Source of the DNA: a virus
IMG/VR virus record: IMGVR_UViG_3300047673_000112
Span: 1 to 42,192 of that record
Reading direction: 5' to 3' (one strand)
DNA: 42,192 nucleotides
Of this stretch, positions 2,941-38,106 are shown piece after piece. The number at the start of each line of letters is the position of its first letter. Position 1 is the first letter of the stretch. The notes below the pieces were generated by a model. That model made no database searches. It saw only the letters and a program-made list of their open reading frames with translations, and was not told where the DNA came from. The position numbers and the translations under genes are program-made.

Positions 2941-2973
2941 CATTGCCCGAATCAGCCCCGTAGGAGGCAACCC

Positions 2974-3675
2974 ATGTCCACATCGCTGGCCAGACGCTTT
3001 AAATTTCAGGTATCGACCGATAACACGTCCTGGCTTTCCATCGCCGGTATCACCGACCTGTCCCCGAACGAAACCCCCACCCTCGTCGCCGCAGACGACT
3101 ACGACAGCAACGGCTTCTCCAACTGGGAGAAGACGATGACGGGCGCGAAGGTCGTTGTGAAGGCGAACCGCAAGACGACCGCCGGCACGTTCGACCCGGG
3201 CCAGGAACTCGTCCGCCAGACCCGTTTTCAGTTCGGTGACCAGGCGCGCATCTACATCCGCTGGTACGACCGGAACGGCGCCGCTGAGGCGTACTCGGGC
3301 CGGGCCCTTGTGGATTGGCAGCAGTCGAAGACCGGTGTCGCTGACCTTGAAGAGGTGACGCTGTCGTTCACGATCGACGGTGTCCTCGCGTCCATTGCGA
3401 ACCCGTGGTCGGCTACGGCTGTCCCGGTCATCGCCTCCGCGACCCCGTCCGGTGTCGCTGTTGGCGGTCAGGTCCAGATCACTGGTGGCGGGTTCAACGG
3501 CACCGTCGCCACAACCGGTGTGAAGTTCGGGGCGACGAACGCGACCGCGTGGACCGTCGTGTCGGACTCCACCATCGTCGCGGTCATGCCCGCCGGTTCC
3601 GCTGGTGCGGCGAACATCGTCGTCACGAACGCCGCCGGCGCGTCGACCGCGTTCAGCTACACCCGGGGCGCTTAG
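2974..3675 (+). CDS. major tail protein with C-terminal Ig-like (IPT/TIG) domain
   Basis: A 233-residue protein preceded by a strong TAGGAGG site. Residues about 1-145 have the beta pattern of siphovirus tail-tube proteins (KFQVSTDNTSWLSIAGITDLSP at the start; YDSNGFSNWEKTMTGAKVVVKANRK). Residues about 150-233 form a separate IPT/TIG-type Ig domain (PVIASATPSGVAVGGQVQITGGGF then GVKFGATNATAW and IVAVMPAGSAGAANIVVTNAAG). Such add-on Ig domains decorate the outside of phage tails and may bind cell-surface sugars. It builds the tail tube; tail chaperones and tape measure follow. Confidence 0.88.
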   Translation: MSTSLARRFKFQVSTDNTSWLSIAGITDLSPNETPTLVAADDYDSNGFSNWEKTMTGAKVVVKANRKTTAGTFDPGQELVRQTRFQFGDQARIYIRWYDRNGAAEAYSGRALVDWQQSKTGVADLEEVTLSFTIDGVLASIANPWSATAVPVIASATPSGVAVGGQVQITGGGFNGTVATTGVKFGATNATAWTVVSDSTIVAVMPAGSAGAANIVVTNAAGASTAFSYTRGA

Positions 3676-7108: not shown

Positions 7109-7962
7109 TTTTCAAAATTGGGAACACATCGTTCAACGACGGCGGGGTACTCCACGTCAGGGCGTTCACCCCGGGCGCTTCGGACCTGGTTACGACGGAC
7201 GCGCAACGCGCGCAACAGGACGGCGTCATCGTGGGCCGCGACTATGTCGGGTCTGCGACGTGGGCGTTCACCATCGACACGAAGGCGGGCGGCGAGGCCG
7301 GCGCCGCGGCGGCGGACGCGGCCCTGCACGCCGAGTGGAATAACCCGGCGATCCGCACGAACCCGAACACCACCGTCCCGCTGTCGTATCAGATGGCGGG
7401 TCGGTGGCGGCGGGTCTATGGCCGTCCCGGGAAGTATGCGGGCATCAACGGTGACACGATGACCCGGTTCGGCAGGGGCCGGATTGTGTGTGACTTCCGG
7501 GTCACGGAGCCGTACCACTACGACGACACCGAGACGTCCGTGGTCTTGACGATTGTGCCGGGCTCCACGGGCGGGCTCGTCGCCCCGCTGGCGTCCCCGC
7601 TGTCGACGGTGCGGTCCTCCGCACCCCGCGCCGGGAACGTCCTGAACGCCGGGGACGCGGCGACGGCGTTGAAGGTCACCTTCCACGGCCCGGTCACCAA
7701 CCCGTGGGTCCGCTCCGCGACGGGCATGGAAGTCTCCCTCATCGGCACGCTCGCCTACGACCAGTCGGTCACGATCAGCCCCCGCGCCGGAACCGTCACC
7801 CGGCAAGACGGCACCAACGCCGCAGGGATGCTCACCCGCGCGACCCGCATGTCGACCACGCTCCTCCAGCCCGGCATGACCGTCCTGTCATTCGGCGGGA
7901 CCGACCCGACCGGCACGGCAACAGCCACCCTCTCATGGCGCAACGCCTACACATCTATCTAG
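7105..7962 (+). CDS. distal tail protein (minor tail)
   Basis: A 285-residue protein starting at GTG 7105, overlapping the tape-measure TGA. The N-terminal domain (about 1-130) is a beta-barrel-like region with a WAFTIDTKAGG segment, then RWRRVYGRPGKYAGI and FRVTEPYHY, which is typical of the Dit protein that links the tube to the baseplate. Residues about 145-280 look like a second all-beta domain, probably a galectin-like or carbohydrate-binding extension. Order right after the tape measure supports this call. Confidence 0.82.
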   Translation: MIFKIGNTSFNDGGVLHVRAFTPGASDLVTTDAQRAQQDGVIVGRDYVGSATWAFTIDTKAGGEAGAAAADAALHAEWNNPAIRTNPNTTVPLSYQMAGRWRRVYGRPGKYAGINGDTMTRFGRGRIVCDFRVTEPYHYDDTETSVVLTIVPGSTGGLVAPLASPLSTVRSSAPRAGNVLNAGDAATALKVTFHGPVTNPWVRSATGMEVSLIGTLAYDQSVTISPRAGTVTRQDGTNAAGMLTRATRMSTTLLQPGMTVLSFGGTDPTGTATATLSWRNAYTSI

Positions 7963-15684: not shown

Positions 15685-15715
15685 GCCCCCACCCTTCACC
15701 GGGTGGGGGCCTTTT
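15685..15715 (+). terminator. intrinsic terminator of the late operon
   Basis: Perfect stem GCCCCCACCC (15685-15694) and GGGTGGGGGC (15701-15710) with a six-base loop, then C and TTTT. It closes the rightward structural/lysis transcript after the fibre gene. On the minus strand no T-run follows. Confidence 0.85.
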
Positions 15716-15719
15716 GTCG

Positions 15720-15780
15720 TTACACACGGTTTCGCAGCCAATAACACCCGGTTTCGTAGCCCGCTACACCTAGTTTCGTG
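15720..15780 (+). promoter_or_regulatory. three tandem copies of the 17-bp operator, 22 bp apart
   Basis: Copies at 15720-15736 (TTACACACGGTTTCGCA), 15742-15758 (TAACACCCGGTTTCGTA) and 15764-15780 (CTACACCTAGTTTCGTG). Starts are exactly 22 bp apart, two helical turns, so a bound protein would sit on one face of the DNA. They fit TNACACNNNGTTTCGTA and lie just past the late terminator, ahead of the leftward small gene. Confidence 0.75.
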
Positions 15781-16035: not shown

Positions 16036-16073
16036 CCCGAAACCGTGTGCAACTCTTACGAAACTAAGTGTTG
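16036..16073 (-). promoter_or_regulatory. operator pair overlapping the 16071 promoter
   Basis: Two minus-strand copies of the 17-bp motif at 16036-16052 and 16057-16073, 21 bp apart. On the plus strand the second reads TACGAAACTAAGTGTTG and covers the first bases of the -35 box. A protein bound here would block the promoter. Confidence 0.75.
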
Positions 16074-16099
16074 ACTTATGTATATACAGGGCTTAGACT
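16071..16099 (+). promoter_or_regulatory. rightward sigma-70-type promoter
   Basis: -35 TTGACT (16071-16076), 17-base spacer, -10 TAGACT (16094-16099). The predicted start near 16106 is about 30 bases before the ATG of the next gene. It drives the four-gene operon 16138-17256, ending at the terminator 17264-17291. Confidence 0.75.
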
Positions 16100-17291: not shown

Positions 17292-18482
17292 CTATGTCCC
17301 GAAGATTTCGAGGGCTTCCCCGGTGTCGATGGGGGTCAGGGATTGGGCCACGTAATGGGCCAGCGTGACCTTGTCGGATGCGTGGCCGAGCTGCTTTGAG
17401 GCCAACACGGAACCGTGGGCTTCATTGACCAACGTCGCAACCGTCTTACGCAACGTCTTCTGCGTCACCCACGACCATTCCGAATCGGCGAACGTTGCCG
17501 CCCACGCCCTCGCGACGTTCCTGGGGGCGAGCAGGTTGCCCTTGCCCGTGTGGAACACCATCGGCCCCGTTGCCGTGGCACGTCGTTCCCTCAGCATTTC
17601 GAGGACGACACCGCGCAACCTCAGCCGGCGAATGTCGTGCTCCTTCGTGGGCCTGAGTTGGAGCCCGTTCCCCGGCTCGCGGACGACCTGCTGCCGGATC
17701 TCCACCCACGGCTCCGGCGCGTCAAGGTGAACGTCCTCCCACGCAAGACCCAGCACCTCACCAGCACGGCAACCCGTAGCCAACAGGAAGTGCATCACGT
17801 CCAACGGCAGTTGCCCGCGGTTCTTCCCACCCATCCGGGCCGTGTCACCATTCGCACGCTCGAACCGCTCCTCATACGTGTACGGCTTCAACCGCTCCAC
17901 CGCATAATCACGCATCGCCACAACCTCAGCAACGGTCAACGCACGGATCGGCTTCCTAGCCTGCTTCGGGACCGGCACATAACCAACAGGGTTCATCCCC
18001 GCCGCACCCCACCGCACAGCCGCCGTAAACATCCCCGACAGTTTAGACCTGACGTTGAACGACGCCCCCGGACCATGCTCACGCGTCACATCCCGGACCA
18101 GCTTCTCAACCACCTGCGGCGACACCTCACGAATCCTGAACTTCCCCAGCTTCGGGATGATGTGGTTATCCAGGCACAGCCGCAAATTGTAAAGCGTGTT
18201 CGCCGCTAGACCGTCTTCCTGCTTCGCGGCCCAATACTTCTCCGCCAACTCAGACACCCGCGACTCACTGTCCAACTCCGCACCACCCGCGGACTTCGCA
18301 CGCCCCCGAAACTTCGCCTTCAACGCCGACTCAGCAGCACCCCGCGAGCCGCCCTGAGCCTTCACACGCCGCGTCTCACCATCCACATCCCGGTAACGCG
18401 CCATCGCCACATGCTTCCCATCCGGCGACTTGGAATAGCTGATATGGCCGTAGTCACCTATGGCTAGCTGCGGACGTGGCAC
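17292..18482 (-). CDS. int: tyrosine integrase
   Basis: A 396-residue site-specific recombinase. An arm-type DNA-binding region (1-70) is followed by a core-binding SAM-like domain (about 75-165) and the catalytic domain (about 180-390). Catalytic residues seen: Arg239 (ATGCRAGE), Lys280, Arg345 (TLRK), His367 (LGHAS) and Tyr377 (HYV). The first His of the usual HxxR box is replaced by Lys342, a substitution I regard as compatible with activity. Start is GTG 18482 with AGGGG upstream. It inserts the phage genome at attB, so the phage is temperate. Own promoter at 18509-18538. Confidence 0.95.
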   Translation of the reverse strand: MPRPQLAIGDYGHISYSKSPDGKHVAMARYRDVDGETRRVKAQGGSRGAAESALKAKFRGRAKSAGGAELDSESRVSELAEKYWAAKQEDGLAANTLYNLRLCLDNHIIPKLGKFRIREVSPQVVEKLVRDVTREHGPGASFNVRSKLSGMFTAAVRWGAAGMNPVGYVPVPKQARKPIRALTVAEVVAMRDYAVERLKPYTYEERFERANGDTARMGGKNRGQLPLDVMHFLLATGCRAGEVLGLAWEDVHLDAPEPWVEIRQQVVREPGNGLQLRPTKEHDIRRLRLRGVVLEMLRERRATATGPMVFHTGKGNLLAPRNVARAWAATFADSEWSWVTQKTLRKTVATLVNEAHGSVLASKQLGHASDKVTLAHYVAQSLTPIDTGEALEIFGT

Positions 18483-19117: not shown

Positions 19118-19885
19118 TTAGTCCCTATCATCCTCACCCGGAACATGCTCATCCGACGCGGCCAAATCGTAGTGAGACTGCTCACTGTGCAACGGGACCA
19201 CGTTCGACGGGGCCCGCAACCGGTCAAGCTCCAACTGCATCGCACCCACCTTCCGGGTTAGTTCCATCAGCAACTCATCCACAGACAGGTCACGCGCCTT
19301 GGCAGTCCCAGGCTCCGGCATTGCTGCCCAATCCCGAACCTCAGACAGCGTGAACGCCTTCGTTATCGGCGCCTCCAGGATCTCCGTGATAACCCCACGA
19401 CGCCACCCCAGCGCATCCTCCAACATCGGGCGCGACTTACGCAACGGAGTCACCTCACCATCACGCCACCCATAAAACGACCGCTCAGCCCCCACCGACC
19501 AGCCCCGGAAAATATCCGCCGGCCCCCGCCGCGACTCGTCCAACTCCTCCTTGATCAGGCGCGATAGTTCGGCGCGGTTGTCCTTTGTCTCGGCGCGCAG
19601 CTTGCGGCCCCGGTTTGCAGCAAGCTCCTTAGCCGCATCCTCACGCCCTACAGCGATCAGTTCCTCCTCGGTGACCTCCACTACCGAAGCCATCCGCGCC
19701 AGCGTCTCAGCCGGCGCTACAACCTTTACCTGATCGCCCCTACCGACCGCCTGGTAACCGTTCACGATGTTCCTCCACCTTGTATCTGACATGCCGAGTT
19801 CTTCGGCTGCCTTGCGGGCCGAGATGTGCAGTCTCTTCTGGGCGTCTCCGATGAGCTTGCCCTCGGGTGTTTGCATGTTTTCCAT
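19118..19885 (-). CDS. immunity repressor with two HTH domains
   Basis: A 255-residue protein from ATG 19885. Residues about 10-45 are an atypical XRE-like HTH (ISARKAAEELGMSDTRWRNIVNG); a linker follows, then about 105-171 resembles a second HTH with the actinobacterial prophage pattern GAERSFYGWRDGEVTPLRKS and LEDALGWRRGVITEIL. The C-terminal part (about 200-235) is a helix that could mediate dimers. It is divergent from a Cro-like gene across a region with three TTATGCGAA copies, and upstream of the ImmA-like and integrase genes. No Shine-Dalgarno lies before ATG 19885, pointing to a leaderless mRNA. An in-frame ATG 12 codons upstream would extend into the operator. Confidence 0.8.
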   Translation of the reverse strand: MENMQTPEGKLIGDAQKRLHISARKAAEELGMSDTRWRNIVNGYQAVGRGDQVKVVAPAETLARMASVVEVTEEELIAVGREDAAKELAANRGRKLRAETKDNRAELSRLIKEELDESRRGPADIFRGWSVGAERSFYGWRDGEVTPLRKSRPMLEDALGWRRGVITEILEAPITKAFTLSEVRDWAAMPEPGTAKARDLSVDELLMELTRKVGAMQLELDRLRAPSNVVPLHSEQSHYDLAASDEHVPGEDDRD

Positions 19886-20053
19886 GTCGCTAGCTTGTTC
19901 GCGAAAGTTATGCGAAGTCAATTAGGCCGACTACGTGCTTTGTTCGCAATCACAATCGTGTAATTCTCATTTTTCCGCGTACTTACGCTGTTTTCCGAAA
20001 AACTTATGCGAACTGTGTTGACTTCGCATAACTTCGCAGTGCATGATTGACCT
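19886..20053. promoter_or_regulatory. divergent repressor/Cro control region
   Basis: Three exact copies of TTATGCGAA or its complement: 19908-19916, 20004-20012 and 20023-20031 (the last two form an inverted repeat 10 bp apart). A palindrome TTCGCGAA lies at 19898-19905. -35 TTGACT boxes: plus 20018-20023, minus 19921-19916. Each is 36 bases from its ATG. Plus -10 CATGAT at 20042-20047 (18-base spacer); no convincing minus -10. Both genes lack ribosome sites. Confidence 0.75.
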
Positions 20054-28396: not shown

Positions 28397-28435
28397 TTAC
28401 ACACGGTTTCGTGAAATCTACGAAACGAGGTGTAG
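28397..28435. promoter_or_regulatory. facing operator pair upstream of 28.5-31.4 kb operon
   Basis: Plus-strand copy at 28397-28413 (TTACACACGGTTTCGTG) and minus-strand copy at 28419-28435 (plus reading TACGAAACGAGGTGTAG). The second overlaps a -10-like TAGAAT (28433-28438). The -35 position is poor (CGTGAA at 28410-28415), so promoter activity may need help or may be weak. Confidence 0.65.
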
Positions 28436-29806: not shown

Positions 29807-30595
29807 GTGACGTGCACGTGCCAGACGAACGCGACAGGCATCTACCTGTGCAATCACTGTTGTGAGGCGTTGGAGCAGGTCCTTAGCGAGCTGGATAGCG
29901 TGGTTGGTGATCTGGTGCGGGCTGTTCCGCGGGCGAGTCTGACGGCCAGCTACGGGGAACGGGTAAGCAGCTCGGGTAGCTTGCATGCGCCGTTGCCGGT
30001 GAACGAAGCAGCACTGGACGCGCACATCGCGTTGGACAAGTACCTCATGGTGACGGCGTTGGAGTTGGCGAAGGTCACGGGTGCCAGGTTGTCGGGCCGG
30101 GACAGTTCCGCGCTCTCGTCGTACATCCTGACGCACATCGGGACACTCCGCACCCAGTCGTGGGCGCCCGACGTCGAACCAACGCTGCGGGGGCTCGTCC
30201 GCGACTGCGAACGTGCCACGCGCACGGCGACACAAGCCGAGTTCGCCGGCACGTGCCCCGAAGACGGTTCGGAACTGTTCACCCACCAAGGCGGCGCAAC
30301 AGCGACCTGCCGGACCTGCTCCGTGGTGTACGAAGACGTCCAAGGCTGGCGGACCACGGCCAAAGCCTACGCCCGTGCTACCGATGACGAGGTCATCGGC
30401 TACCCCAAAGCACTCTCCGAACGGCTCGCCAAAGTCCACGGCGAAACCATCGGCGCAGACTACATCCGGGTACTCGCAGCACGCGGCCTCCTGGTCAGGG
30501 TCAACCCCGAACGCGGGGACGACGGGAAAGTGCTGCGGCCCATGTACAAGCTCGGAGACATCAAACAACTCATCACTAGGGAAGATGCGGCATGA
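29807..30595 (+). CDS. zinc-ribbon and winged-helix-like hypothetical protein
   Basis: A 262-residue protein from GTG 29807, preceded by GGGG. Cys-rich start (CTCQTNATGIYLCNHCCEAL), a helical middle (about 25-130), a zinc-ribbon-like CPEDG ... ATCRTC (about 150-170), then a C-terminal helix-turn-helix-like region (ALSERLAKVHGETIGADYIRVLAARGLLV). Proteins of this form are common in actinophage early regions; a DNA-binding role is likely but no specific function is known. ATGA overlap with the adenine methyltransferase. Confidence 0.68.
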   Translation: MTCTCQTNATGIYLCNHCCEALEQVLSELDSVVGDLVRAVPRASLTASYGERVSSSGSLHAPLPVNEAALDAHIALDKYLMVTALELAKVTGARLSGRDSSALSSYILTHIGTLRTQSWAPDVEPTLRGLVRDCERATRTATQAEFAGTCPEDGSELFTHQGGATATCRTCSVVYEDVQGWRTTAKAYARATDDEVIGYPKALSERLAKVHGETIGADYIRVLAARGLLVRVNPERGDDGKVLRPMYKLGDIKQLITREDAA

Positions 30596-31407
30596 CACTA
30601 AAACCGCCATTCGCCTACTACGGCGGGAAAACGACACTAGCATTGAAGATCGCCGATTTATTGCCGAAGCACGATCACTACGTGGAGCCCTTCGCAGGCT
30701 CCCTTGCCGTCCTGCTCGCCAAGGAGCCGACCGGGTGGGAAACCGTCAACGACCTCGACGGCGACCTCGTGAACTTCTGGCGAGTGCTCCGTGACCAGCC
30801 GGAAGAACTGGAGCGCGCCGCCATGCTGACGCCACACTCCCGAGAGGAATACGAAACAAGCAGGGATCTTGATGGCGACGACCTAGAGCGGGCACGGCGT
30901 GTATGGGTGCGCCTAACACAGGGGCGCTCACACTCAATGAAGCCGACGGGTTGGTGGTATGGTCGCCGCGCCGCAAGTAGGTTTACCTCCCCACCATCCG
31001 ATGTCGAGGGGTTCGCTGCGCGCACCCTCGCCGCGGCGGAACGCCTGAAGCGGGTAAGCCTAGAGAGCCGGGACGCCATTGAACTGGTGCGCGACTACGG
31101 CGCTGAACCGTCAGTCTGCATCTACGCCGACCCGCCCTACCTCGGAACAACGCGGGCGGCGAACTACCGCGTCGAGATGCTGGAGGATGACTTGCATGTG
31201 CAGCTTGCCGAAGCGCTGCGAGGATGCAAGGCTTCGGTAGTCCTTTCCGGGTATGCGTCACCGCTCTACGAGGACCTGTATCCAGGCTGGCACCGCATGG
31301 AACTCAAAGCGCCCACCGCACTCTCTGGCCGGGCCGCTGAGAATGAAGTCCTGTGGTCAAACGTTCCGCTTGGTGTGCAAGAAGCCTTCGACTTCAGCGC
31401 GGCCTAA
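30592..31407 (+). CDS. Dam-type N6-adenine DNA methyltransferase (D12 class)
   Basis: A 271-residue enzyme. Motif X/I: PPFAYYGGKTTLALKI (5-20), with Phe-Ala-Tyr-Tyr-Gly-Gly-Lys; VEPFAGSLAV (31-40) binds SAM; the catalytic motif is ADPPYLGTTR (179-188, Asp-Pro-Pro-Tyr). The C-terminal half carries HVQLAEAL and SGYASPLYEDLY, as in phage Dam enzymes. It methylates adenine in a short target, probably GATC-like, which cannot be told from sequence. Last gene of its operon; the intergenic operators and promoter follow. Confidence 0.93.
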   Translation: MTLKPPFAYYGGKTTLALKIADLLPKHDHYVEPFAGSLAVLLAKEPTGWETVNDLDGDLVNFWRVLRDQPEELERAAMLTPHSREEYETSRDLDGDDLERARRVWVRLTQGRSHSMKPTGWWYGRRAASRFTSPPSDVEGFAARTLAAAERLKRVSLESRDAIELVRDYGAEPSVCIYADPPYLGTTRAANYRVEMLEDDLHVQLAEALRGCKASVVLSGYASPLYEDLYPGWHRMELKAPTALSGRAAENEVLWSNVPLGVQEAFDFSAA

Positions 31408-31444
31408 CGAAACGATGTGTAACTCTGTACGAAACTAGGTGTTG
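31406..31444 (-). promoter_or_regulatory. operator pair overlapping the 31442 promoter
   Basis: Two minus-strand copies of the 17-bp motif at 31406-31422 and 31428-31444, exactly 22 bp apart. On the plus strand the second reads TACGAAACTAGGTGTTG and runs into the -35 box. Same layout as at 16036-16073. Confidence 0.78.
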
Positions 31445-31471
31445 ACTTTGATACGCGGTTGAACTTACAAT
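31442..31471 (+). promoter_or_regulatory. rightward sigma-70-type promoter
   Basis: -35 TTGACT (31442-31447), 18-base spacer, -10 TACAAT (31466-31471). Predicted start about 31478. A terminator hairpin begins only eight bases later, so most transcripts would stop at about 36 nt unless read through. Confidence 0.75.
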
Positions 31472-31485
31472 TGAGTTGTAGCGAA

Positions 31486-31513
31486 AGAGCCTCCAGGAAT
31501 GGGGGCTCTTTTT
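31486..31513 (+). terminator. terminator/attenuator directly after promoter
   Basis: Stem of nine pairs, AGAGCCTCC (31486-31494) with GGGGGCTCT (31501-31509), one G-T pair, six-base loop, then five T to 31513. It ends transcripts from the upstream methyltransferase operon and also those from the promoter at 31442. Confidence 0.8.
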
Positions 31514-31537
31514 CATGCCCAACGAAACGGGGTTGCC

Positions 31538-31780
31538 GTGAGCCTTGCTGTGGTGTCGCCGGCCCCGATCCTGGACCATGCCGATAGGTGCGATCGTTGC
31601 GGATCCCGCGCGTATGTGTGGACGATCCTGACGTTCCCGTCCTCGGCGACGGGTGAGCTGCTGTTCTGCCGGCACCACTGGTTGCAACACCGGGCCAAGG
31701 TCCAACCGTTCGTGTCCGTCATCGTTGACGAATGCCGGTCCTTGTTCAAACACGTTGAAGACGATAAACACATCACCTAG
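31538..31780 (+). CDS. DUF7455-like zinc-ribbon protein
   Basis: An 80-residue protein from GTG 31538. The segment DHADRCDRCGSRAYVWTILT followed by GELLFCRHHWLQHRAKV matches a small zinc-ribbon family (CxxC ... CxxH) common in actinobacteria and their phages, usually annotated DUF7455. Function of the family is not known. A frame extension upstream to 31499 enters the terminator and is rejected. Confidence 0.7.
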   Translation: MSLAVVSPAPILDHADRCDRCGSRAYVWTILTFPSSATGELLFCRHHWLQHRAKVQPFVSVIVDECRSLFKHVEDDKHIT

Positions 31781-32302: not shown

Positions 32303-32591
32303 ATTTGGTGCGCGTTGGTCAACACGATGTGACTCGTGATGTGGCCGTATGGGTCTTCCGCGGTTTCGTGAAGCCTACTCCGCTGCTTCGGAACGCTGCC
32401 AACGCGCACCAACAAACTTGATAAGACCGCCGACCACTTTCCGCCTACTGGAGAGGTCGGCGGTCATCTACTTCCGGGAAATGTCACTCAACCACGCAAG
32501 CCCGGTTGCCCCACCGCACCTTATCGCCCCAGTTCAGCGGAACCACAAAGAACGGGCACCCTTTCACCACCGTAAGCAGACGGGAACCGCT
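32303..32591. other. 289-bp gene-free region with long inverted repeats
   Basis: Two stem candidates: a 14-bp inverted repeat TTGGTGCGCGTTGG (32305-32318) with its complement at 32399-32412, enclosing a smaller CACGA/TCGTG hairpin; and an 11-bp stem GACCGCCGACC (32425-32435) with 32455-32465. The second could stop transcription or mark an RNA end, but lacks a T-run. The region lies between the early genes and the packaging operon; a late promoter or packaging site may be here. No tRNA or clear promoter is seen. Confidence 0.55.
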
Positions 32592-33830
32592 ATGACACGC
32601 TGTAAATATGGGCAGGTGGCGACACCGAACGCCGAAGCGATGACGTCCAGGCAGGCCGCGAAGTTCCTCGGCATGGGCAAGTCGGCGATCAACGACCACC
32701 GGGCCGGGAAATGCATCTGCACCAAGGCTGAGGCCCCGGTCAACTCCGAGACTCACCGCCCGGACGGCACAGCCGACTACGTGACCATGAGCGAACGCGC
32801 ATGGGGCTACGAAGACTTCAGGCGGTTCATAGCGTCCAAGGGCCAAGATCCCGACAAGGTCACCTTTACATGGGGAGTCACCAGCACCCCGCAGGGCGGC
32901 TATTTCAATAAACTCAACAACGTCCGGCCTGTTGCGTCGGTTGATGCCGGGCTTGAAGCCGTTGACCTGCCGGCACTGTACGCCGCGGCCCGTCACGCAA
33001 CTTCGATTCCGCGTCCCGTTCTGGCTGACCGGGCAACGGTCATTGTGTGGGCCGATCCGCAGATCGGTAAGACCGGCTCGCGTGGCGGTACTGCTGAGCT
33101 GATCGAACGCTCCACCGTGATCCGTAAGAAACTGGACGAGCTCCTGACAGATCGGAACCCCTCGGCGATCCTCCTGGCTGATGCCGGTGACGGGATTGAG
33201 GGTTTCGAGTCTGGCGGCAACCCCATGTTCACGAACGACCTGAGCCTGTCGGGCCAGCTCGACACGTACGGCACGGAACTGTTCGAGTACATCAACCTCG
33301 CACACTCTTACGCCCCTGTCACGGTCGCGGGCATCCCCTCGAACCACGCTGCTTGGCGCTGTGGGAAGCAGAACCTTGGGCGCCCCAGTGATGACCTTGG
33401 GCTGTTCATGCACAAGCAGGTCCAGAAGGTCACGGACGCCGCTGGTATGGACGTCTCATGGGTGAAGCCAGCCGAGTACGACGAAAGCGTTGCGGTGGAC
33501 TTCTACGGCACCAAAGTGGGCATCGTGCACGGTAATCAGTTCGGCCCGGGACAGGCTGTGACGTGGTGGCAGAAGCAGGCCTTCGGCGCACAAGCTGCCG
33601 CGACCGCCGATGTGCTGGTGCACGGTCACTACCACTCGTTCTCCGCCTCGGTAGCTGGCCGTAACCCCGTATCGGGCCGTCAACGGTACTGCCTCGGCGC
33701 CCCCACTTTGGATAACGGGTCTGACTGGTTCCGGCAAGTCCAAGGCCGCGACAGTGACCCCGGCCTCATGGTCTTCGACGTCACCGAAAACGGGTTTGAC
33801 CTGAGTTCGCTGACGATCCTCACCGCGTAA
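32592..33830 (+). CDS. metallophosphoesterase with N-terminal helix-turn-helix
   Basis: A 412-residue protein from ATG 32592; the open frame upstream to 32349 lies in the inverted-repeat region and lacks a start with a ribosome site. Residues about 16-42 form an HTH (AMTSRQAAKFLGMGKSAIND). Residues about 148-360 are a calcineurin-like phosphoesterase with WADPQIGK (Asp155), ADAGDGIEG (Asp200), IPSNHAAW (Asn251, His252), IVHGNQ (His313) and VHGHYHS (His346, His348). It could be a nuclease or phosphatase that binds DNA. First gene of the packaging operon. Confidence 0.85.
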   Translation: MTRCKYGQVATPNAEAMTSRQAAKFLGMGKSAINDHRAGKCICTKAEAPVNSETHRPDGTADYVTMSERAWGYEDFRRFIASKGQDPDKVTFTWGVTSTPQGGYFNKLNNVRPVASVDAGLEAVDLPALYAAARHATSIPRPVLADRATVIVWADPQIGKTGSRGGTAELIERSTVIRKKLDELLTDRNPSAILLADAGDGIEGFESGGNPMFTNDLSLSGQLDTYGTELFEYINLAHSYAPVTVAGIPSNHAAWRCGKQNLGRPSDDLGLFMHKQVQKVTDAAGMDVSWVKPAEYDESVAVDFYGTKVGIVHGNQFGPGQAVTWWQKQAFGAQAAATADVLVHGHYHSFSASVAGRNPVSGRQRYCLGAPTLDNGSDWFRQVQGRDSDPGLMVFDVTENGFDLSSLTILTA

Positions 33831-36295: not shown

Positions 36296-36838
36296 GTGGC
36301 TCCCAGACTTCCGAAAATGACCGAGGCTGACAAGGACGAGATCCTCCAGCTCCACAAACAAGGCCTCACCCAGCGCGAGATCGCGGAACGCACCGGCAGG
36401 CCCGCGGGCACCATTTCGACGTTCTGCTCCCGCAACGGGCTGAAGTTCGATGGGACCACGACCGAAGCGGCGACCGCGCGGCGGGTCCTCGACGCCAAAG
36501 AACGCGTCTCACTGCTCCGGCTGGAACTGATCGCCGTGCAGGAACACCGGGTCGCCGAGATACGCGCCGTACAAAACGGCGAGAAGAAGTGGAAGACCGT
36601 GCTGCGCGGGACCGGCGCGTCCGAGGGTGAGGCCGAACTATCCTTCATCCCACCCAACGACTACGCCCGCGAACAATCCGCCGCGTCCCAGGCGTCCACC
36701 GCGATCAAGAACTACGCCCCGCAAGAGGTCGCCAAGGACACCACCGCCACCGACTCCGTTGTCGACGCCCTGCTGACCGGGTTCCGGCAGCACTACGACA
36801 CGGCGGTGAAACCCGCGAAAGTGGGGGATGAGACGTGA
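36296..36838 (+). CDS. terS: terminase small subunit
   Basis: A 180-residue protein from GTG 36296 with AGGAGG upstream. Residues about 8-45 form an HTH (MTEADKDEILQLHKQGLTQREIAERTGRPAGTI with FCSRNGLK) that would bind the packaging site. The middle is coiled coil (LDAKERVSLLRLELIAVQEHR) for ring formation, and the C-terminus contacts the large subunit. GTGA overlap with the large-subunit gene. Confidence 0.85.
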   Translation: MAPRLPKMTEADKDEILQLHKQGLTQREIAERTGRPAGTISTFCSRNGLKFDGTTTEAATARRVLDAKERVSLLRLELIAVQEHRVAEIRAVQNGEKKWKTVLRGTGASEGEAELSFIPPNDYAREQSAASQASTAIKNYAPQEVAKDTTATDSVVDALLTGFRQHYDTAVKPAKVGDET

Positions 36839-38106
36839 GCAACCCCGCCCTGTCGGATAAGCAGATCGCGTCCATCGTCGAATCCGAACAGCAGACCATC
36901 AGCCTGTGGGTCGGCGCCGTCTCGGCGGGTAAGACGATCGCGTCCCTGTTCGCATTCCTCCTCGCCGTCAGGCTGTGCAAGGGCACGGGCCTGATCATCA
37001 TCGTGGGCAAGACGCTCCAGACCATCGAACGCAACATCCTCGCCCCGCTCATGGATCAGCGGATCTTCGGGGAACTCGCCAACCACATCGTCCACACCAA
37101 GGGTTCCGGGATCGCCATGATCCTCGGCAAAGAGGTCGCGCTCGTGGGCGCGAACGACACCCGGTCCGAGGAGAAGATCCGCGGCTCCACCGTCGAGTTG
37201 GCTTACGTGGATGAGGCGACGTTGTTGCCGCTGGGGTTCTGGGAAATGCTCGTCTCCCGCCTCCGCGTCGCCGGCGCCCGGTTGCTTGCCACCACGAACC
37301 CGGGCTCGACCCGGCACTGGTTGCGGCTCGACTGGATCCTCCAGGCCGCGGCGAAGAACATGCGCGTCTTCCACTTCACCATGCACGACAACCCGCAATA
37401 CTTCCCCGGCGGCAACCCGGGCCCGGCGTACATCGCGCAGATGCAGGCGTCCTACGCGGGCGTGTTCTATGACCGGATGATCAAAGGGTTGTGGACGAAC
37501 GCCGAGGGCGCCGTGTACGACATGTGGGACCCGACCCGGCATGTGATCCGCTGGGAAGACATGCCCCCGATGAAGCGGGTGTTGTGCGTGTCGATTGACT
37601 TCGGCACCCAGCACGCCACGTCGGCGATCATGCTGGGCATCGGGTATGACCGGAAGCTGTACATGATGGACGAACTGCGGATTGACGCGGGCACGTCCTC
37701 CACCCTCCGCCAGTCACCGTCGCAGCAGTCCAAGACGATCAGGGACTGGATCCGCAAGCCGCATCACCCCGAACAGCTTGCCCTCGCCCCTGAGTGGGTG
37801 ATTGTGGACACCGCGGCGGCGGACTTCCGCCAGGAACTCTACGTCGACGGTTTGGCTACGCAGGGCGCGAAAAAAGATGTGGTGTACGGCATCGGCATCG
37901 TGTCCTCCCTCCTCCAAAAAGGCCAGTTGGTTGTCACCGACCGGTGCGCGGGCTGGGTGGAGGAAGTCACCGACTACGTGTGGGACCCGAAAGCGACCGA
38001 ACGCGGCGTGGACGCCCCGATCAAACGCGGCGACGACAGTATGGACGCCGGTCGTTACGGAATTGTTACAACCGAGTCCCTTTGGCGCGGCGAACTCGCC
38101 GACTAA
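36835..38106 (+). CDS. terL: terminase large subunit
   Basis: A 423-residue packaging motor and nuclease. ATPase part: Walker A GAVSAGKT (27-34), Walker B LAYVDEA (122-128, Asp126-Glu127) and a coupling motif TTNPGS (153-158). RNase H-like nuclease part: SIDFGT (Asp255), VDTAAADF (Asp325/Asp330) and DDSMDAGRY (Asp400, Asp401, Asp404). Pattern is that of the PBSX/T4-like group. It starts at GTG 36835, co-translated with the small subunit. Confidence 0.96.
   Translation: MSNPALSDKQIASIVESEQQTISLWVGAVSAGKTIASLFAFLLAVRLCKGTGLIIIVGKTLQTIERNILAPLMDQRIFGELANHIVHTKGSGIAMILGKEVALVGANDTRSEEKIRGSTVELAYVDEATLLPLGFWEMLVSRLRVAGARLLATTNPGSTRHWLRLDWILQAAAKNMRVFHFTMHDNPQYFPGGNPGPAYIAQMQASYAGVFYDRMIKGLWTNAEGAVYDMWDPTRHVIRWEDMPPMKRVLCVSIDFGTQHATSAIMLGIGYDRKLYMMDELRIDAGTSSTLRQSPSQQSKTIRDWIRKPHHPEQLALAPEWVIVDTAAADFRQELYVDGLATQGAKKDVVYGIGIVSSLLQKGQLVVTDRCAGWVEEVTDYVWDPKATERGVDAPIKRGDDSMDAGRYGIVTTESLWRGELAD

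Follow-up and report, generated by a model that had tools for sequence, protein, structure and literature searches.

The locus near 31.4 kb raises a simple question: why would a phage place its highest-scoring promoter directly before a complete intrinsic terminator, at the head of what look like its late genes? The stretch of DNA analysed here (the window) is a virus record, 42,192 bases long, that looks complete and has a 127-nt repeat at its ends, so that it can be read as a circle. It has the genes of a temperate actinophage: an integrase, recombination genes, methylases, terminase, portal and tail genes. The rightward genes from ~16.1 kb to 31.4 kb, mostly for DNA metabolism, look early, and those from 31,538 through the terminase and round to 15,541 look late. 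Our reading of the locus, to which we give a probability of roughly 0.6, is a late promoter under repressor control whose promoter-proximal attenuator is opened by antitermination. The features around it are as follows.

17292-18482, minus strand: integrase gene
29807-30595, plus strand: candidate regulator gene, encoding a Cys-cluster, a helical part, a zinc ribbon and a C-terminal winged helix (phrog_908/phrog_1467)
30592-31407, plus strand: Dam-type DNA methylase gene, separating the candidate regulator gene from the promoter-terminator unit
31407-31420, plus strand: operator copy 1, ACGAAACGATGTGT, 22 bp upstream of copy 2
31429-31442, plus strand: operator copy 2, ACGAAACTAGGTGT, overlapping the -35
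31442-31471, plus strand: sigma-70/sigma-A type promoter, TTGACT-18-TACAAT, 10/12 consensus positions
31472-31482, plus strand: minimal leader, with a start predicted at 31477-31480 from the -10 spacing
31483-31513, plus strand: intrinsic terminator (putative attenuator), with a 13-bp stem, a 4-nt loop and a U tract at 31509-31513
31538-31780, plus strand: gene for a DUF7455 zinc protein (GTG start; PF24254, E 1.9e-16), the first past the putative attenuator
32580-33830, plus strand: MRE11-like exonuclease gene of the late operon, the anchor for finding relatives
36296-38106, plus strand: HTH protein (terminase small-subunit candidate) and terminase large subunit, in the downstream operon

The promoter scores 15.8 in a weight-matrix scan of both strands, the top value in the window, and the runners-up at 16071 (plus strand) and 29602 (minus strand) reach 13.3 each; the matrix is a generic sigma-70 one and the host is an actinobacterium. 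The tetramer TTGA occurs four times, at 31442, 31448, 31459 and 31471, the last three roughly one helical turn apart from the spacer to the -10, and the copies across the spacer and -10 are possible binding-site repeats for a regulator. Downstream, the arms 31483-31495 and 31500-31512 form the stem at -21 kcal/mol, with T5 at 31509-31513. The near-consensus promoter under two operators and the full intrinsic terminator of the original prediction both stand up to these scans. That prediction also set the terminator eight bases after the start and the RNA at about 36 nt; the closeness and the short RNA hold, and the single figures become ranges, with the stem beginning 5-8 nt past a start placed by -10 spacing and a predicted RNA of ~34-37 nt. 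A consensus scanner reported no terminator at 31483-31513, probably because extension of the stem consumes the A/T pairs beside the T tract. Reading from a 31478 start, we found no -10-like pause element, there being no T from 31480 to 31491 and hence no ANNNT. A TTTTTCATGCCC-like sequence follows the terminators at 31508-31520 and 2936-2948 and, by eye, those of several relatives; allowing two mismatches, the motif is not above chance in the window.

The operon headed by the 31442-31471 promoter carries the DUF7455 gene, the exonuclease, terminase and virion genes. Since just 24 nt separate the U tract from the DUF7455 start codon, a second promoter cannot fit before that gene, and no other plus-strand promoter scoring at least 10.5 was found in the late region from 31538 to 15541, across the circular join, where the plus-strand operon has no gap longer than 97 nt. 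The window has four strong plus-strand terminators (31483-31513, ~2937, ~15712 and ~17287). The second of these (2911-2941) falls within the late operon, where it immediately precedes the gene for the major tail protein (2974); expression of the tail genes would need read-through or antitermination there.

From this layout we infer a course of transcription, termination efficiency, antitermination and a regulator. Repressor bound to the operator pair would cover the -35 in the lysogen. With repression lifted, polymerase would start near 31478 and mostly stop at the hairpin after ~36 nt; the late operon would be silent while it stopped there (31483-31513), and the same hairpin would also halt early transcripts coming from upstream. 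Late expression would begin once polymerase leaving the 31442-31471 promoter became termination-resistant. Because the leader is too short for an RNA antiterminator, which excludes an alternative antiterminator structure, a leader peptide and a nut/put-like RNA, the antiterminator is likely to be a protein acting at the promoter or on polymerase. Like lambda Q and AlpA, it would probably load at the promoter, and the prime candidate is the zinc-ribbon/winged-helix protein encoded at 29807-30595. A processive antiterminator would also pass the terminator near 2937.

The layout's anatomy, neighbourhood and conservation are established computationally. A search for relatives with the downstream exonuclease gave 80 loci. 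Among dereplicated promoters scoring at least 10.5, a terminator followed within 140 nt for 21 of 29 in the homologous zone (1.7 kb upstream of the exonuclease) as against 5 of 71 in the rest of the same loci (Fisher p = 8e-11; the window is one of the 29), and two of those five exceptions look like the promoter-terminator unit outside the zone limits. The 100 nt upstream of 24 dereplicated terminators, the window's being one, contain better promoters than dinucleotide shuffles do (combined Fisher p = 6e-7), with eight terminators individually below 0.05. Operators, leaders and hairpins vary by lineage and the promoter-then-terminator architecture stays. The unit of L025, whose DUF7455 protein is 56% identical, has the same layout in unrelated sequence: TCACTG operators, whose repeats are also found elsewhere in L025 at putative promoters, then TTGACA-18-TATCGT and a different hairpin ~15 nt past the -10.

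Leaders range from about 7 to more than 100 nt, which rules out a universal -10-to-hairpin distance. Some units have the terminator hairpin alone, and others, including several distant ones, have an extra leader hairpin before it; with leaders so varied, the mechanism need not be uniform. Extra hairpins were seen in L202 (Che8, 7145-7240), L203 (GMA1, 2948-3010), L204 (TripleJ), L128, L129, L133 and L178, those of Che8 and GMA1 being similar in sequence (ACGTGTCCCTGAAACACG, ACGTGTCCCAAAAACACG), so that they could be a conserved RNA element. Some relatives have no recognisable unit at the thresholds used. The Arthrobacter phages L032, L033, L034 and L036 have a strong hairpin terminator directly before the DUF7455 gene and no clear promoter, and we considered whether the terminator belongs to that gene, of which there are 74 chromosomal matches in actinobacterial genomes. 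We rejected the idea because distant units lie upstream of the exonuclease with no adjoining DUF7455 gene, which ties the association to the operon head.

Immediately before the unit there is usually a gene for a zinc-ribbon protein, either DUF7341/7340 or phrog_908 with a winged helix. In window-like phages a phrog_908/phrog_1467 gene precedes the unit, at times with one or more inserted genes. In the distant phages L146, L160, L171, L176 and L178 the zinc-ribbon gene ends 0-25 nt before the promoter, and in L182 it ends 267 nt before; the proteins of all these phages match DUF7341/DUF7340, some below the curated cut-off. Cultured phages show the same neighbourhood: TripleJ has gp82, of the window-type family, and then directly the promoter-terminator unit; Footloose has gp62 (DUF7341) and then a weaker promoter with a strong terminator; Che8, a weaker case, has gp100 (DUF7341) and, past the neighbouring gp101, a candidate unit. 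Clear relatives of the candidate regulator occur in Che8 and many similar mycobacteriophages.

An alignment of 16 family members shows zinc-ribbon cysteines that are conserved and, after them, a winged helix that varies. In the structure model of the window's protein, of moderate confidence (pLDDT 74.5, pTM 0.52), there are C-terminal helices and a wing, with middling fold matches to the HTH domains of BldC, excisionase and TerS; the L131 and L138 homologues have MerR-like profile matches. A fold search with this moderate-confidence model gave no convincing PDB match and no Q protein among the listed matches, and sequence searches of Pfam, PHROGs and PDB gave no match to a Q family; the missing structural match to Q is not evidence for a different fold.

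Across 16 units, similarity in the 17 nt that precede the -10 follows winged-helix identity (r = 0.67; in the TCACTG group the spacer also holds operator sequence). The relation persists when exonuclease identity is taken into account (partial r = 0.65, p = 0.0002, n = 16), and likewise the regulator's own N-terminal part (r = 0.46, p = 0.0002), whereas the N-terminal part gives no further information beyond that of the winged helix (p = 0.23). In a set of 12 units, pruned of near-duplicates, the partial r is 0.38 (p = 0.002), and physical linkage of neighbouring gene and promoter could yield part of the covariation. That the zinc-ribbon protein is the antiterminator is a tentative assignment, somewhat short of an even chance.

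These data also bear on a reading without antitermination, in which the terminator would block early transcripts and the late genes would be fed by read-through from the strong promoter. The hairpin does stand where early genes give way to late ones, its U tract is moderate (T5), the promoter is strong, and the antiterminator is a candidate only. However, a plain insulator would normally be placed upstream of a late promoter, whereas the order of promoter then terminator is kept in many lineages; a conserved candidate regulator adjoins the unit; and the terminator near 2937 is easier to accommodate with processive antitermination. We regard simple leakage as unlikely.

Two further IMG/VR phages, L023 and L024, share the window's gene order around the unit, and the start of the DUF7455 gene is kept in relatives. 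Coding DNA of the larger genes shared with L023 and L024 is ~79-95% identical. Promoter, leader and the 5' arm of the hairpin are identical over at least 60 nt (31436-31495 in L024, 31436-31510 in L023), and within the exonuclease region comparable runs of identity are found in two or three places only. The promoter spacer is 100% conserved in the three phages and the operators differ among them. In L024 the bases at the loop-proximal top of the hairpin are changed with the stem kept; in L023 (2790-2990) the U tract of the first terminator is lost, and a second, unrelated hairpin with a T tract lies ~20 nt before the DUF7455 start codon. In L122 the hairpin is unchanged, the promoter is different and the operator is reversed in orientation. 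One of the options in the original prediction, an attenuator that polymerase has to pass if the genes from 31538 on are to be expressed, is well supported because the order is conserved, no other late promoter was found and L023, whose first terminator has no U tract left, has a second one ahead of the gene.

The same comparison weakens another of its options, a tiny RNA, which would be a trans-acting or decoy transcript of ~36 nt, with the downstream operon expressed from elsewhere. Promoter and terminator are complete, and L023 and L024 share the first part of the RNA at 100% identity. Yet in other lineages the transcript sequence is unrelated and the architecture alone is kept, the downstream operon has no promoter that we could find for it, Rfam searches gave no match above any family's gathering score, and the L023 RNA would not end at the first hairpin. 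Because its sequence is not kept, a trans-acting RNA is quite improbable.

If, instead, the promoter went unused and the hairpin merely ended the early operon after the methylase gene, the spacing would be unexceptional: the hairpin lies 76 nt past the methylase stop codon, as is normal for an operon-end terminator. But this would leave unexplained the best promoter score in the genome, an operator overlapping its -35 exactly as at 16071, and the enrichment of promoters upstream of such terminators, and the unit is intact where the upstream gene differs. The methylase insertion itself is peculiar to the window phage, being absent from L023 and L024, and because other relatives have different genes there the spot looks like a cargo site. 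We consider an unused promoter very unlikely.

The operators place the unit within a wider regulatory system. The motif CGAAACNNNGTGT occurs exactly nine times in the window, where 0.13 occurrences are expected, and its sites (9-10) always cluster near putative promoters, mostly paired at 21-22 bp. Features of this system beyond the unit are as follows.

15722-15779, minus strand: array of three operators at 22-bp spacing
16058-16099, plus strand: second operator-overlapped promoter, TTGACT-17-TAGACT
19118-19921, minus strand: 267-aa weakly HTH-like protein, the repressor candidate (sub-threshold HTH_31)
28399-28433: divergent operator pair before the 28480 gene

Like copy 2 at 31442, the operator at 16058 overlaps a -35, that of the 16071 promoter, which is the probable early rightward promoter. 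Homologues of the 19118-19921 protein occur in L026-L028, where the operator motif recurs. In region 15690-15779 an end-of-operon terminator (~15712) is followed by the three minus-strand operators. A third operator look-alike beside the unit, at 31522 (AACGAAACGGGG), was rejected, being unconserved in relatives (CGAATC, CGATC), and probably belongs to the ribosome-binding region. When operator plus -35 was sought in IMG/VR as an exact pattern, the 21 stretches that matched were unrelated, and the scan was dropped.

Cluster A mycobacteriophages such as L5 and D29 are alike in that repressor sites overlap a lytic promoter. Their stoperators are 20-30 asymmetric sites across the genome, oriented with transcription (PMC6550527), whereas the window's nine exact sites are few, mostly paired at 21-22 bp and confined to the vicinity of a few putative promoters, and its terminator is intrinsic. 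Abundant short transcripts have been reported from Pleft of L5 and D29, with no stem-loop terminator evident for that of L5 (PMC5712189). A stoperator-like device that soaks up or stops polymerase beside bound repressor, the remaining option of the original prediction, draws on the two co-oriented operators immediately upstream but is highly improbable, since the operator sites cluster near putative promoters where stoperators are scattered (PMC6550527), and an intrinsic terminator works without bound repressor.

Antitermination at a repressor-controlled late promoter, the reading we prefer, has its nearest parallels outside the Actinobacteria. Both Q (PMC6606751) and AlpA (PMC7969949) recognise a site in the promoter spacer, between -35 and -10, and let polymerase pass terminators that stand shortly before the first gene. 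As at lambda pR'-tR' and in its phage 21/82 relatives, a sigma-70 promoter here heads the late operon with an intrinsic terminator directly downstream, before the first gene, a layout conserved in relatives; a candidate regulator gene lies close upstream, and the spacer conserved in the window, L023 and L024 is a putative counterpart of the stretch that holds Q binding elements. In contrast to lambda, the promoter is overlapped by immunity-repressor operators, the leader is just 5-8 nt with no -10-like pause element recognised, the candidate regulator has no detectable relation to Q, and the host is an actinobacterium. The AlpA system of Pseudomonas aeruginosa (alpB promoter and tB; PMC7969949) likewise has an intrinsic terminator just upstream of the first gene and a DNA-binding protein with a predicted winged helix, which the structure model also gives for the 29807-30595 protein; binding between -35 and -10 is putative here. 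AlpA differs in governing a cell-lysis programme and, by its description, in having neither a zinc ribbon nor a helical N-terminal domain. On balance we favour a unit that works like the Q system, and we do not file it as one because no canonical Q pause element was seen.

Actinobacteriophages are among the largest sequenced phage groups. We found no description of antitermination-controlled late genes in them in the open-access literature, a silence that is weak evidence of novelty. The unit may represent a widespread and undescribed late switch of these phages, a repressor-covered promoter plus terminator with new zinc-ribbon antiterminators (DUF7341/DUF7340, phrog_908) encoded alongside and unrelated to lambda Q, a generalisation that we offer with considerable doubt. 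The unit supplies a concrete cis element and a candidate trans factor (DUF7341/7340, phrog_908/1467), both of them open to test in cultured phages. If true, it would extend processive antitermination of the Q/AlpA type to the Actinobacteria via a new protein family, and would assign a role to proteins now annotated as hypothetical.
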